From assembly GCA_016871855.1 (NCBI GenBank), contig VHBQ01000009.1, forward strand, positions 1 through 57,502: a stretch of DNA of 57,502 nucleotides, written 5' to 3'. Source of the stretch: Gemmatimonadota bacterium (GTDB lineage Bacteria; Gemmatimonadota; Gemmatimonadetes; Gemmatimonadales; Gemmatimonadaceae). A program made the position numbers and the translations under genes. A model generated the notes under the pieces. The model ran no database searches. It was not told the origin of the DNA and worked only from the letters and a program-made list of their open reading frames with translations. Positions 53,016 through 57,502 of the stretch are shown piece after piece. The first letter of the stretch is position 1. Each line of letters opens with the position of its first letter.

Positions 53016-53031
53016 TCCGACGGAGCCCCCC

Positions 53032-53472
53032 ATGGCACACGACAACGACAAAACCGATGACCTGCGGTCCCGGCTGACTCCACTGCAGTATGAAGTCACG
53101 CAGTGCAGCGCCACGGAACCGCCCTTTCGCAACGCGTTCTGGAATCACCACGAGCCCGGCCTCTACGTGGACGTGGTCTCCGGCGAGCCGCTCTTCGCCT
53201 CCACCGACAAGTTCGACTCAGGAACGGGCTGGCCGTCGTTCACGCGCCCCGTGTCGCCCGCGTCGGTGCGCGAGCACGAGGATCGCAGCCACGGCATGCG
53301 CCGCGTCGAGGTGCGCTCCGAGCGGGGCGATTCGCATCTCGGGCACGTCTTCCCGGACGGCCCCGGTCCCACCGGCATGCGATACTGCATCAACTCCGCC
53401 TCGTTGCGCTTCATTCCGGTGGAGCGGCTTGAGGCGGAGGGCTACGGAGAGTACCGAACGCTGTTTCCGTAG
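53032..53472 (+). CDS. msrB: Peptide-methionine (R)-S-oxide reductase
   Basis: MsrB reduces methionine-R-sulfoxide in proteins. The 146-residue protein has GTGWPSF and the catalytic Cys119 in [11 protein letters not shown]. The two CxxC pairs that bind structural zinc in many MsrB are absent (the first is replaced by SGEP), so this is the zinc-free type. Cys24 in the N-terminal part could be the resolving Cys, but that is a guess. There is no signal peptide. The ATG at 53032 follows a weak GGAG sequence. Confidence 0.94.
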
Positions 53473-55043: not shown

Positions 55044-56330
55044 ATGCAATTGGCTTCCTCCACCCCGTCGCCGGGGTCGGTTGCTGGTGAGCCTGCGCAC
55101 TCCGCCACACACGCGCGACTCGAGTCGGAGTGGTTGGACCCGACCTTGCTTGCCGACGTACGTCGGCACGGCCGCTTCGATGCCCACTGCCTGAACTGCG
55201 GCGGCTGCTCGGTCGCCTGCGAGTTGAGCGACGAGAGCCTCACGCTGCCCCGGCGTCCGCTGCGCGGCGTGCTGCTTGGCCTGAAGGCGACCACGCGCGC
55301 GTCGCTTGAGCCGTGGGTCTGCCACGACTGCGGCGATTGCGCCATCGCCTGCCCGCAGAAGGCCAATCCCGCGGAATCCATGCGCACGCTGCGCCGCTAC
55401 CTCACCGGACAATACGACTTCACTGGCTTGTCCCGGCGCATCCTGCGGTCCAAGGCCTGGCACCTCGGTGCGCTCGGCGTCGTCTTCGCCATCGTGCTCG
55501 CTCTGCTCGTTGTGTACCACCTGTACTGGGCTGAGCTGACGATGACTGACTTCGTCGGCACCGCGCTGCCGATGGAGCACATGTTTCCGAAGATCAAGTA
55601 CTTCACCTGGATCGTCTACGGCATCCCGCTGGTCTTCCTCACGCTCCACGCCTGGCGCATGCAGCGCCTGACGATGGGGCGCCTGGGCGTGCCGCTTCGG
55701 CACTACTTCATGGAAGCGTGGATGATCTTCGTGCAGGTCGTCACGCAGAAGCGCATGCGGCAGTGCCCGGCGGAGCAGCGCCGGCAGCGCGCGCTCGAGC
55801 TGTTCAAGAGTGAGGGCAAGGAAGCCGGCGTGCACCTGGTGCCGCGGCGCTGGATCAAGCACTGGCTGATGGCCGCCGGGACGATGGCGATGCTGGTGAT
55901 CACCGGGCTCTTCCTCGCCTGGTTCCAGACCGACGCCGTGCACGCGTGGTATCACCCGCAGCGTCTCCTTGGCTACGTGGCCACCGCGTGCATCCTGTGG
56001 GCGACGACGGACATCCTCGTGCGCCGCGCGCGCACGCCGCGCGCCGAGCGCCGGCCGAACGCGCTGGCCATGCCGCTCCTGCTCTGGCTGACCGCCGTCA
56101 GCGGCATCGTCGTCCACGTGGTGCGCGTCCTCGGGCTCGAGCTGACCACGCACTACGCCTACGCCGCGCACCTGCTCATCACCGTGCCGATGGTCGTCGT
56201 CGAACTGCCGTTTGGCGAATGGGCGCACATGATTGACCGCCCGCTCGCCCTGTACTTCCACGCCGTGCGCCTGCGCGCCGCCGCGGAACAACCCAGCGAG
56301 GCGGGCCTCGTGCCCGTGCACACCTCATGA
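55044..56330 (+). CDS. HdrC-HdrE-like iron-sulfur/cytochrome b membrane protein (QmoC type)
   Basis: The 428-residue protein fuses a cytosolic dicluster ferredoxin (Cys49/52/55/59 and Cys93/96/99/103, with CLNCGGCSVAC and CHDCGDCAIACP) to six membrane helices (about 145-390). The helices hold several histidines that could bind heme b. This matches QmoC and HdrC-HdrE fusions, which pass electrons between a soluble flavoprotein and the quinone pool. The ATG at 55044 has GGAGA upstream; a GTG-like longer start at 55029 would not. The stop overlaps the HdrA-like gene by 4 bases, so the two subunits are made together. Confidence 0.82.
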   Translation: MQLASSTPSPGSVAGEPAHSATHARLESEWLDPTLLADVRRHGRFDAHCLNCGGCSVACELSDESLTLPRRPLRGVLLGLKATTRASLEPWVCHDCGDCAIACPQKANPAESMRTLRRYLTGQYDFTGLSRRILRSKAWHLGALGVVFAIVLALLVVYHLYWAELTMTDFVGTALPMEHMFPKIKYFTWIVYGIPLVFLTLHAWRMQRLTMGRLGVPLRHYFMEAWMIFVQVVTQKRMRQCPAEQRRQRALELFKSEGKEAGVHLVPRRWIKHWLMAAGTMAMLVITGLFLAWFQTDAVHAWYHPQRLLGYVATACILWATTDILVRRARTPRAERRPNALAMPLLLWLTAVSGIVVHVVRVLGLELTTHYAYAAHLLITVPMVVVELPFGEWAHMIDRPLALYFHAVRLRAAAEQPSEAGLVPVHTS

Positions 56331-57502
56331 TTGCACCGCGCACCCCGCCGGTCGGCGCCGCCCTCGTGGTTGGCGGCGGCGTCGGAGGCATCCAGGCGGC
56401 GCTTGACCTCGCCAGCGCCGGCATCAAGGTCTACCTCGCGGAACAGAAGTCGGGCGTCGGCGGCGTGATGGCCGAACTCGACAAGACGTTCCCCACCAAC
56501 GACTGCGCGATGTGCACGATGGCGCCGCGCCTCGCCGAACTGGCTCGGCACAAGGACATCGAAATCATCACGCTGGCCGACATCGAGCAGGTGGAGGGAA
56601 GCGCCGGCGACTTCGACGTGACGCTGCGCAAGCGCGCCCGGTTCGTGGATGAATCCAAGTGCACGGGCTGCGCGGCCTGCGCCGAGGTGTGCCCGGTGGA
56701 GCTGCCGTCGGCGTTTGACCACGGGCTCAGCACGCGGCGGGCGATCTACCGCCCGTATCCGCAGGTGGTGCCCAACGTCTTCGCCATCTCCCGGCTGGGC
56801 GTGTCGCCGTGCCAGGGCGCGTGCCCGATCCACCAGAGCGCGCAGGGCTATGTGACGCTCATCGCGCAAGGTCGCTTCGAGGAGGCGCTGCAAGTCATCC
56901 TGCGCGACAACCCGCTCCCTTCCATCTGCGGCCGTGTGTGCACGCATCCGTGCACGGCGGCGTGCACCCGCTGCTCGATTGACGATGCGGTGAACATGCC
57001 GGCGCTCAAGCGGTTCGTGACGGACCAGTTCCCGGGCTACGAGCTGCCGAAGGTGACGGTCGCCGACCGCCCGGAAACGGTCGGCATCGTCGGGGCGGGA
57101 CCGGCCGGACTGATGTGCGCGTGGCAGCTGCGGCAGCAGGGCTATCGTCCGGTCATCTATGAATCGCTGCCCGTTGCGGGGGGAATGCTGGCTGCGGGGA
57201 TTCCGGAGTTTCGCCTGCCGCGCGAGGTGCTCACCGCCGAGATCTCGCGCTTCACCAACGCGGGGATTGACATCCAGCTGAACACGCGGCTGGGCCGCGA
57301 CGTAACGCTGGACGAGCTGCGCGAGCGGCACGCGGCGGTCTTCCTGGCCATTGGCGCGCACGTGGAACGCGCGCTCGGCGTGCCCGGCGAGCATCACGCG
57401 GGCGTGCTGGGCGGCGTGGAGTTCCTGCGCCGCGTCAACCTCGAAGGTCCCTTTGCGCTGGGCAAGCGCGTGCTAGTCATCGGCGGCGGCAACTCGGCGC
57501 TC
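56327..57502 (+). CDS. HdrA-GltD-like iron-sulfur flavoprotein fusion (3' end missing)
   Basis: The frame is open to the window end, giving 392 residues so far. It starts with a HdrA-type FAD fold (VVGGGVGGIQAAL) and the HdrA motif FPTNDCAMCTMAPRL (Cys60/63). A [4Fe-4S] motif CTGCAACAEVCP follows (Cys112/115/118/122). From Cys162 it changes to the N-terminal Fe-S domain of glutamate synthase small subunit (CQGACPIHQ; CGRVC at 201-205). A second FAD fold (VGIVGAGPAGL, 252-262) and the start of an NAD(P) fold (VLVIGGGNSAL) follow. It probably exchanges electrons between NAD(P)H, its flavins and the HdrC-HdrE subunit. Confidence 0.85.
   Translation, partial: MIAPRTPPVGAALVVGGGVGGIQAALDLASAGIKVYLAEQKSGVGGVMAELDKTFPTNDCAMCTMAPRLAELARHKDIEIITLADIEQVEGSAGDFDVTLRKRARFVDESKCTGCAACAEVCPVELPSAFDHGLSTRRAIYRPYPQVVPNVFAISRLGVSPCQGACPIHQSAQGYVTLIAQGRFEEALQVILRDNPLPSICGRVCTHPCTAACTRCSIDDAVNMPALKRFVTDQFPGYELPKVTVADRPETVGIVGAGPAGLMCAWQLRQQGYRPVIYESLPVAGGMLAAGIPEFRLPREVLTAEISRFTNAGIDIQLNTRLGRDVTLDELRERHAAVFLAIGAHVERALGVPGEHHAGVLGGVEFLRRVNLEGPFALGKRVLVIGGGNSAL

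Follow-up and report, generated by a model that had tools for sequence, protein, structure and literature searches.

A QmoC-like gene and an HdrA-GltD fusion gene at the end of a Gemmatimonadota contig: probable first genes of a membrane-attached Mvh-type [NiFe] hydrogenase-HdrA operon

Introduction

Mvh hydrogenases are generally regarded as components of MvhADG-HdrABC, the disulfide-reducing complex that in hydrogenotrophic methanogens contains a group 3c [NiFe] hydrogenase; PMC6085437 treats it as the minimum set. According to PMC9012536, MvhAG feeds the C-terminal ferredoxin domain of HdrA, and the exits are HdrBC and the inserted ferredoxin domain; HA3, HA5 and HA6 are described as the low-potential route to ferredoxin (PMC6019823). 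That HA5 and HA6 are the clusters of the inserted domain is our own reading of the two sources combined. The present report deals with a gene pair at the 3' end of contig VHBQ01000009.1 of a Gemmatimonadota bacterium (assembly GCA_016871855.1); the whole stretch of DNA analysed, positions 1 to 57,502 of the forward strand, is called the window below. Gene 1 encodes a QmoC-like membrane subunit and gene 2 a fusion of HdrA with a GltD-like NAD(P)H module. The two genes probably open an operon that encodes a membrane-attached complex of an Mvh-type [NiFe] hydrogenase and HdrA, with a bifurcation-type coupling of H2, quinone and NAD(P)H. From its predicted parts, the complex very probably links the quinone pool of the membrane with both H2 and NAD(P)H.

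HdrA/GltD fusions are already in print. HdrL of Desulfobacterium autotrophicum was reported in 2009 as a 'heterodisulfide reductase/glutamate synthase fusion' with MvhD (PMC2702500), and an HdrL-like protein is mentioned for Desulfurivibrio (PMC12142623). A group 3c hydrogenase with hdr genes, left without an assigned function in the source, is present in Caldithrix (PMC5317091), and group 3 hydrogenases were found in all seven peat Acidobacteria SbA1-7 (PMC6018796). The combination of a QmoC-like subunit, an HdrA/GltD fusion and MvhADG was not met in the accessible parts of the openly licensed literature, among the matches listed.

The gene pair

The window is a complete contig (C9) of a draft genome of 2.99 Mb in 159 contigs, which is 85.6% complete; gene 2 is therefore truncated at its 3' end. 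The two genes overlap by the letters ATGA. Complete relatives of the gene 2 product have about 1,490 amino acids (aa). The window holds only the first part of the GltD module and stops at the NAD(P) Rossmann motif, and the full layout of its fusion is expected, by analogy, to be that of the relatives. The same gene pair is present in the sister genome G002, where the fusion is 87% identical (to aa 368) and the QmoC-like protein 86%. In G002 the pair ends at the end of contig C37 (L034:9360), and the two fusion genes are broken within about 25 residues of one another.

The first-pass annotation, made from the letters of the window, had proposed an HdrA-GltD fusion with a QmoC-like (HdrC-HdrE) partner, and both proposals hold. 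The HdrA and GltD model matches of gene 2 lie in one unbroken frame, which, together with the closely similar copy in G002, rules out a plain GltD gene or a frame break between the modules. Gene 1 matches the NCBIfam qmoC model with 103.9 bits over aa 52-410.

Operon content in relatives

Matches to the QmoC-like protein are rare in the host lineage. They were found in 4 of 288 genomes across the order (E<=1e-20), one of them partial and distant, and in 3 of 395 genomes of an even sample of the phylum (E<=1e-30), among them the same distant one; few candidates were scored per genome in the phylum sample. A species-level genome scan with an alignment of three QmoC-like proteins gave at least 37 loci, a list that is incomplete, as the scan used two short peptide patterns. 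Of these loci, 31 (L073-L103) belong to the present subfamily, and six (L104-L109) lie beside QmoA/QmoB-type genes and show no MvhA or MvhG in the fetched flanking DNA. By their record titles, the 31 loci span Acidobacteriota (the title of L103 is SbA4), Gemmatimonadetes, Ignavibacteria/Bacteroidetes, Aminicenantes, deltaproteobacteria including a Syntrophaceae, and Hydrothermus.

Where the DNA suffices, the gene order is QmoC-like, HdrA1(front)-GltD-HdrA1(back)-HdrA2 (about 1,490 aa), MvhD, MvhG, MvhA. In 28 of 29 loci, all but L096, the QmoC-like and HdrA1 frames lie close together, with a candidate start -32 to +5 nucleotides from the stop. Proteins of more than 1,400 aa were seen in 15 loci, with 1,481-1,493 aa after trimming of the starts. 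MvhG and/or MvhA are visible in 22 of the 31 loci by the domain map (20 by the frame map alone), and MvhD in 22, one of them cut. The nine loci without a visible hydrogenase come from eight genomes, seven of which hold MvhA elsewhere at 70-100% identity, once with an internal stop and once as a partial gene at a contig edge; a search for MvhA in the genome of L077 found none. The operon thus runs on past the end of the window, as the first-pass annotation had expected. In place of the unseen partner dehydrogenase or sulfur enzyme that it had left open, the relatives have MvhA, MvhG and MvhD, which make up an Mvh-type [NiFe] hydrogenase; a sulfur enzyme is not the partner there. In many relatives the hydrogenase genes are on one contig, and in the own genome (end of MvhA) and G002 they lie on fragments. 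Its suggestion to look for the same domain order in other genomes yielded the 31 loci.

The hydrogenase was classified by the group 3c motifs given in PMC6085437, which are ICGxCxxxH (L1) and AYDPCxxCATH (L2) in MvhA. Of 26 MvhA sequences or fragments, 23 have L1 and 21 have an exact L2; in this set G010, the third genome of the genus, is counted twice and L085 contributes a fragment of another hydrogenase; in L100 the L2 motif has CGTH for CATH. MvhG and MvhD stand beside MvhA on contig C74 of G002 and in relatives. In two deltaproteobacterial loci (L096:16501-17940 and L102:1769-3208) MvhA has an in-frame TGA at the first Cys of L2 (DP-stop-LSC), followed by TAA at codon 481. This TGA probably encodes selenocysteine, which would make the enzyme a [NiFeSe] version. 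Frames resembling multiheme cytochromes by eye adjoin the operon in Aminicenantes (L097:6620-8101) and Hydrothermus (L100:474-8249).

No HdrB was found inside these operons across the 31 loci, and none of 18 genomes has a match over the TIGR03288 cut-off. An HdrB hidden elsewhere in the genome was considered and rejected, the best scores being scraps in the own genome (24.9 bits), G002 (32.4 bits) and G010 (22.7 bits), yet 5 of the other 15 genomes have HdrB-like matches. Three loci of another family of the same order (L029-L031) carry HdrC-HdrB-HdrA/GltD operons with Mvh genes and no QmoC-like member of the subfamily; the HdrA-GltD fusion therefore exists in both a disulfide-type and a quinone-type version. 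In one further genome (L032; G037 C113), an HdrA-GltD gene of 980 aa has a very divergent QmoC-like gene near it on the same strand, and a distant MvhD-like stretch adjoins.

Domain structure of the fusion

Residues 11-168 of the gene 2 product match positions 141-302 of the HdrA2 model (212.8 bits), and residues 159-392 match the GltD-like family PRK12771 in two stretches (285.1 bits; the cut-off for the whole protein is 516). Chains of HdrA and of NfnB/StnC/NfnABC in PDB match the respective halves. In Pfam, the GltD module gives Fer4_20 (69.6 bits) and positions 3-155 of 291 of Pyr_redox_2; its PDB matches include 9bov, 9n5u and 8oh5. The site of insertion was located in a homologue from a complete operon, L101 (contig JASHNU010000050.1, 9962-19151), whose residues 11-156 and 630-897 align with residues 145-290 and 293-565 of the HdrA chain 5odc_A, with the GltD module at 160-561 in between. 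GltD is thus inserted at HdrA 291-292, between both cluster motifs of the inserted ferredoxin domain, and the two collinear stretches that flank it make up the HdrA core, i.e. the flavin adenine dinucleotide (FAD) domain and the inserted ferredoxin domain.

Cys63 of HdrA1, equivalent to Cys197 of methanogen HdrA, is kept in all 20 rows that have letters at this position. The HdrA2 part has the N-terminal domain that HdrA1 lacks; a DCxxC motif was looked for in this part of 15 full-length proteins and not found. This complementarity of Cys197 and N-terminal domain is what PMC9012536 reads as internal heterodimers, here with the halves in reversed order.

At the position of StnC K170, all 21 rows including the window have Lys, and the NfnB chains 5jca_L and 4ylf_B have Glu. 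No NfnB-type Glu was found beside the FAD-proximal [4Fe-4S] cluster in any of these rows. The StnC flavin with K170 is reported not to bifurcate (PMC10482914), and by analogy the Lys of the fusion may have the same meaning. The GltD flavin is therefore unlikely to be a second bifurcation site, its cluster-adjacent residue being Lys as in StnC and not Glu as in NfnB, and this role was rejected for it. The first-pass annotation had counted two flavin sites plus NAD(P) as a set for electron bifurcation; two or more flavin sites and NAD(P) are supported, but the GltD flavin drops out as a bifurcating site.

The Arg-Arg (RR) pair of the GltD NAD(P) site, which we take to mark a preference for NADPH, lies beyond the end of the window; of the 19 rows long enough to include the site, 17 have the pair. 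In the other two (L085 and L097) it is replaced by LE, which hints at the use of NADH over NADPH. In an Acidobacteriaceae locus (L092:5205-7949), the GltD module has Ala at position 162 for a cluster Cys and GGGAT for GGGNS; this NAD(P)H module looks as if it were decaying within an otherwise intact HdrA.

A structure model was computed with AlphaFold for the homologue L101 (912 aa), with a mean predicted local distance difference test score (pLDDT) of 68.5 and a predicted template modelling score of 0.52. The best matching folds are NfnABC, StnABC and NfnB, with HdrA first at rank 48. The model check that had been suggested for the fusion thus supports the predicted GltD fold and leaves the packing of the HdrA halves, and the HdrA arrangement as a whole, unreproduced.

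The QmoC-like subunit

Gene 1 is called QmoC-like and not QmoC because its score is far below the equivalog cut-off of 300 bits; the protein of G010 (132.4 bits) is likewise below it. Its architecture is an HdrC-type domain for two [4Fe-4S] clusters followed by a cytochrome-b/HdrE-type membrane domain with hydrophobic stretches. His 270, 373 and 392 are kept in 32 of 32 subfamily rows and in 4 of 4 true QmoC rows; His 156, 176 and 355 are found in 31 of 32 QmoC-like rows and are absent from true QmoC. The 32 rows used for Cys and His leave aside L102 and the four true Qmo rows. In the QmoC tree the true Qmo rows form a separate, fully supported group. By its distant similarity to QmoC, the subunit would bind heme, with conserved His as ligand candidates, and reduce quinone. 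Coordinates are given in Table 1.

Table 1. Features of the gene pair in the window. Residue numbers of the QmoC-like protein are counted from 55053.
Feature	Position	Strand	Remarks
QmoC-like membrane subunit, gene 1	55044..56330	+	ATG 55044 to TGA 56330; frame open from TTG 55029
First CxxCxxCxxxC cluster motif, QmoC-like protein	55188..55220	+	C46, C49, C52, C56 in 32/32 rows
Second CxxCxxCxxxC cluster motif, QmoC-like protein	55320..55352	+	C90, C93, C96, C100 in 32/32 rows
HdrA1(front)-GltD fusion gene, gene 2	56327..57502	+	ATG 56327, open through last base 57502; cut by contig end
HdrA1 front half	56327..56794	+	FAD Rossmann half, without N-terminal HdrA domain, plus first half of inserted ferredoxin domain; HdrA2 model 141-302
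NDCxxC motif	56504..56515	+	Second Cys (aa 63) equals Cys197 of methanogen HdrA; offset 134 from alignment to 5odc_A
First CxxCxxCxxxC motif, HdrA inserted ferredoxin domain	56660..56692	+	aa 112-122; four Cys invariant in homologue alignment
Inserted GltD/StnC-type NAD(P)H module, first part	56795..57502	+	Fer4_20 cluster region and FAD Rossmann fold; cut at GGGNSAL
Lys codon (aa 228)	57008..57010	+	StnC K170 position; Glu in bifurcating NfnB

Exchange of the NAD(P)H module

Among the 31 loci, the insert in HdrA1 is a fused GltD in 22 (one of them the G002 contig), a fused NuoE in five, both in one (G010) and absent in one (Hydrothermus, L100); two are undecided. As far as the contigs extend, NuoF follows in four of the five NuoE loci and NuoG in three, and no GltD was found in the fetched DNA of the five; one of them, L084, is labelled Nuo although its contig ends right after NuoE, and a GltD further on is possible. 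In Nuo-type loci HdrA1 is cut after the first cluster motif (front part seen in L074 and L076) and continues on a chain fused to NuoG (L074, L076, L080 and L087). In two of them (L076:14718-17128 and L080:14664-17074), genes with CBS/HATPase, PHP and HATPase domains (Pfam, L080) lie between NuoF and NuoG. They presumably resemble those of [FeFe] HydABC clusters, as if a whole cluster had been borrowed.

Five changes of the Nuo label are needed on the tree of 37 QmoC proteins, and well supported branches force at least four of them. As shuffled Nuo labels need 4.8 changes on average, the label is scattered and not clustered. L077 and L102, whose contigs end before the insert is visible, are left out of this count of insert types; L107 and L109 are not included in the tree, which carries a long-branch warning for L100, L108 and G037. 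The exchange is also seen between close relatives: in the sister pair L098 (Nuo) and L101 (GltD), QmoC is 91.5% and the HdrA1 front 90.6% identical and the module that follows differs, and in a second pair, L087 (Nuo) and L088 (GltD), the values are 80.7% and 76.9%. Single swaps may reflect mis-assembly or mixed bins, the loci being drawn from metagenome-assembled genomes.

The genome of origin and its genus

Contig C97 of the own genome starts inside MvhA, of which 163 aa remain (90% identical to MvhA of G002 and 80% to that of G010); this fragment (L067) carries the L2 motif. After the end of MvhA follow a maturation protease, a HypB/CobW-type gene and HypF. By analogy with its relatives, C97 and the fusion would form one operon. 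In G002, contig C74 opens inside HdrA2, after which come MvhD (FlpD, 186.7 bits), MvhG (Oxidored_q6, 106.9 bits), MvhA and a protease. G010 has the locus on a single contig, with divergent MvhAG, then QmoC-like, HdrA1(front)-NuoE, NuoF-GltD, NuoG(N)-HdrA1(back)-HdrA2 and MvhD. A weak match at the end of contig C75 (39.6 bits) was considered as the continuation of the fusion and set aside, as its frame ends in a ferredoxin domain; the gene after this frame looks by eye like a 2-oxoacid oxidoreductase.

The own genome has three matches over the cut-off to the COX1 family, which also includes relatives of oxidases; this fits the first-pass remark that the rest of the window looks like an aerobic heterotroph. 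A second [NiFe] hydrogenase with a NuoE-NuoF-type chain is present on C52:6000-16000 (L069), its large subunit 41-44% identical to MvhA of G002 and G010, and several genomes of the genus have genes like it. Near the operon, at window positions 53017-53469, lies a gene for methionine sulfoxide reductase B (SelR). G010 has a gene judged by its appearance to be of the same kind on the other side of the operon (L033:19350-19790).

Proposed electron flow and alternatives

The domain order, the operon content of the relatives, the insertion point, the recurrent swap and the conserved cluster and heme-ligand candidates are established; from these we infer complex formation, the reaction with quinone, bifurcation and the direction of electron flow. 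H2 would be donor or product at MvhA, and electrons would pass via MvhD and the C-terminal clusters of HdrA2 to the HdrA flavin, with the FAD of HdrA1 as the probable site of bifurcation. The high-potential branch would run from the HdrA1 flavin through the HdrC-like clusters of the QmoC-like subunit and heme b to the quinone pool, in the place of the methanogen branch that runs from HdrC through HdrB to the heterodisulfide. The low-potential branch would lead into or out of an NAD(P)H module, which is GltD here and NuoEFG in other species and sits within the inserted ferredoxin domain of HdrA, the domain through which methanogens serve ferredoxin. The most likely net reaction would be the splitting of H2, with one electron pair going to menaquinone and thereby paying for the other pair, which would reduce NAD(P)+ (or ferredoxin). 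NAD(P)H would thus be made even at scarce H2, and the reverse, formation of H2 from quinol and NAD(P)H, would be possible. The partial pressure of H2 sets how reducing it is as a donor. Since menaquinone lies at -74 mV and NADH at -320 mV (PMC10734219), the coupling would be useful at scarce H2. A wider reading, tentative and with a chance somewhat below even, is that of a family of quinone-driven bifurcating hydrogenases that lost HdrB, send the high-potential electron to the membrane quinone pool by the QmoC-like chain and use the low-potential arm of HdrA as a socket that has repeatedly taken up GltD, NuoEFG or both.

Several observations weigh against the proposed complex. In the species of origin the fusion is truncated and linked to C97 by analogy; the HdrA1 back half and HdrA2 were searched for in its 159 contigs and not found (MvhD and MvhG were not searched for there). 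Elsewhere the giant protein is split over two frames in L079 and L091, its 5' part is broken off in L096, and L097 shows no MvhD within 1.5 kb after it. The working of the NAD(P)H module may differ between loci, since L085 and L097 are without the RR pair and L092 lacks one cluster Cys. The L101 model is weak at the junction (pLDDT below 50 in residues 104-172), and 5odc_A superimposes on it with a root-mean-square deviation of 34.5. The quinone and heme role rests on a distant similarity to QmoC, at about a third of the cut-off. HdrB-like proteins of 137-270 bits occur elsewhere in 5 of the 18 genomes, and the 31 loci include a single HdrB-like gene, that of L091, which is located about 7.6 kb upstream next to further Hdr genes. 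Finally, bifurcation depends on flavin potentials, which lie beyond what can be read from sequence, and free ferredoxin could be the low-potential partner.

A branched oxidoreductase without bifurcation, for example an H2/NAD(P)H:menaquinone oxidoreductase with uncoupled branches, is less likely. The Lys at the GltD flavin is that of the non-bifurcating StnC, and the Qmo-type loci L104-L109 have two HdrA-like chains and the same chain types with no MvhA or MvhG in their fetched flanks. However, the FAD region and ferredoxin arm of HdrA1 align closely with those of bifurcating HdrA, and the NAD(P)H module is placed on the low-potential arm, an insert that a linear route from H2 to quinone would not appear to need.

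Rather improbable is that the complex works in reverse, producing H2 by electron confurcation from quinol and NAD(P)H (or ferredoxin) in fermentation or syntrophy. Its hosts do include a Syntrophaceae (L096) and a deltaproteobacterial metagenome-assembled genome (L091), and group 3 hydrogenases were up-regulated in anoxic Acidobacteria microcosms, with energy-generating H2 oxidation and/or fermentative H2 production named as possible roles (PMC6018796), but these may be other hydrogenases than those considered here. With its three COX1-family genes the own genome looks able to respire, so that disposal of electrons as H2 is not forced.

There is little to recommend the view that this species has a plain HdrL-type fusion, or a decaying leftover that no longer forms a working complex. 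The missing rest of the fusion and HdrA2 would agree with it, as would the rarity of the system, seen in 3 of 395 genomes sampled across the phylum (one of them distant and partial), but the incomplete genome has a contig that simply ends, the cluster Cys, Lys 228 and the FAD motifs are intact, and the terminus of MvhA with its L2 motif is kept on C97. An Hdr complex for thiol/disulfide or sulfur compounds, with the QmoC-like protein as a true QmoC for adenosine 5'-phosphosulfate reductase, is scarcely credible: the chain types are those of QmoABC and the qmoC model picks up gene 1, but the score is low, true Qmo forms a separate clade, no HdrB exceeds its cut-off and the recurrent neighbours are hydrogenase genes, for which reasons a true Qmo for sulfate reduction was rejected (no search was made for Apr, Sat or Dsr genes).

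The probable hydrogenase-HdrA complex with coupled branches suggests a testable way in which bacteria of soil, peat and sediment might couple low H2 to NAD(P)H via the quinone pool. If the wider reading of a quinone-driven family is true, respiring bacteria could make NAD(P)H from scarce H2, and in reverse, fermenters and syntrophs could vent electrons from quinol as H2. The repeated exchange of GltD and NuoEFG at one site of HdrA is a natural experiment on the assembly of electron-bifurcating machines. Because the present family has no HdrB in its operon and ends in a membrane subunit of the quinone type, bacterial group 3c hydrogenases may often have been assigned the wrong partner.

Comparison with known systems

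By the domains and gene order described above, this is a real, conserved variant of the Mvh-Hdr hydrogenase family that appears, from its parts, to be membrane-anchored, with exchangeable NAD(P)H modules. It shares with MvhADG-HdrABC of methanogens (group 3c) the MvhA, MvhG and MvhD subunits with the L1 and L2 motifs and the HdrA core with its inserted ferredoxin domain. It differs in that the operon has no HdrB, HdrC is fused to a cytochrome-b membrane domain, and HdrA1 and HdrA2 are fused, with GltD or NuoEFG as insert.

HdrL likewise has HdrA and glutamate synthase in one chain with MvhD adjoining, as in the complete relatives of gene 2, but HdrL1 stands with dsr genes, and a QmoC-like subunit and MvhA/G are not described for HdrL in the available text of its source. 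HdrA9-11 of ANME-1, reported in 2022, also have an NfnB-like insert of about 500 aa in the HdrA ferredoxin domain; the complementarity of Cys197 and N-terminal domain is described in the same source for tandem and fused HdrA (PMC9012536). These proteins are archaeal, and the accessible part of PMC9012536 reports no QmoC-like subunit or Mvh hydrogenase alongside them. 'Ca. Symbiobacter mobilis' has group 3c Mvh genes and an HdrA with an NADH-binding domain, without HdrB or HdrC, and a coupling to NADH was proposed for it; in this comparison by description, the available part of the source mentions no membrane or quinone subunit (PMC4053972).

QmoABC of sulfate reducers has two HdrA-like units, an MvhD domain and a membrane chain of the HdrC-HdrE type in common with the present system. 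It differs in its separate branch of the QmoC tree, and the flanks fetched for L104-L109 show neither MvhA/MvhG nor a fusion with an NAD(P)H module; one of these loci (L106) has a separate GltD-like gene nearby. The GltD module resembles StnC and NfnABC, with Lys at the K170 position, and the alternative NuoE/F/G module resembles parts of HydABC; in StnABC, NfnABC and HydABC these modules are joined to chains of the NuoG/HydA type, whereas here they are joined to HdrA.

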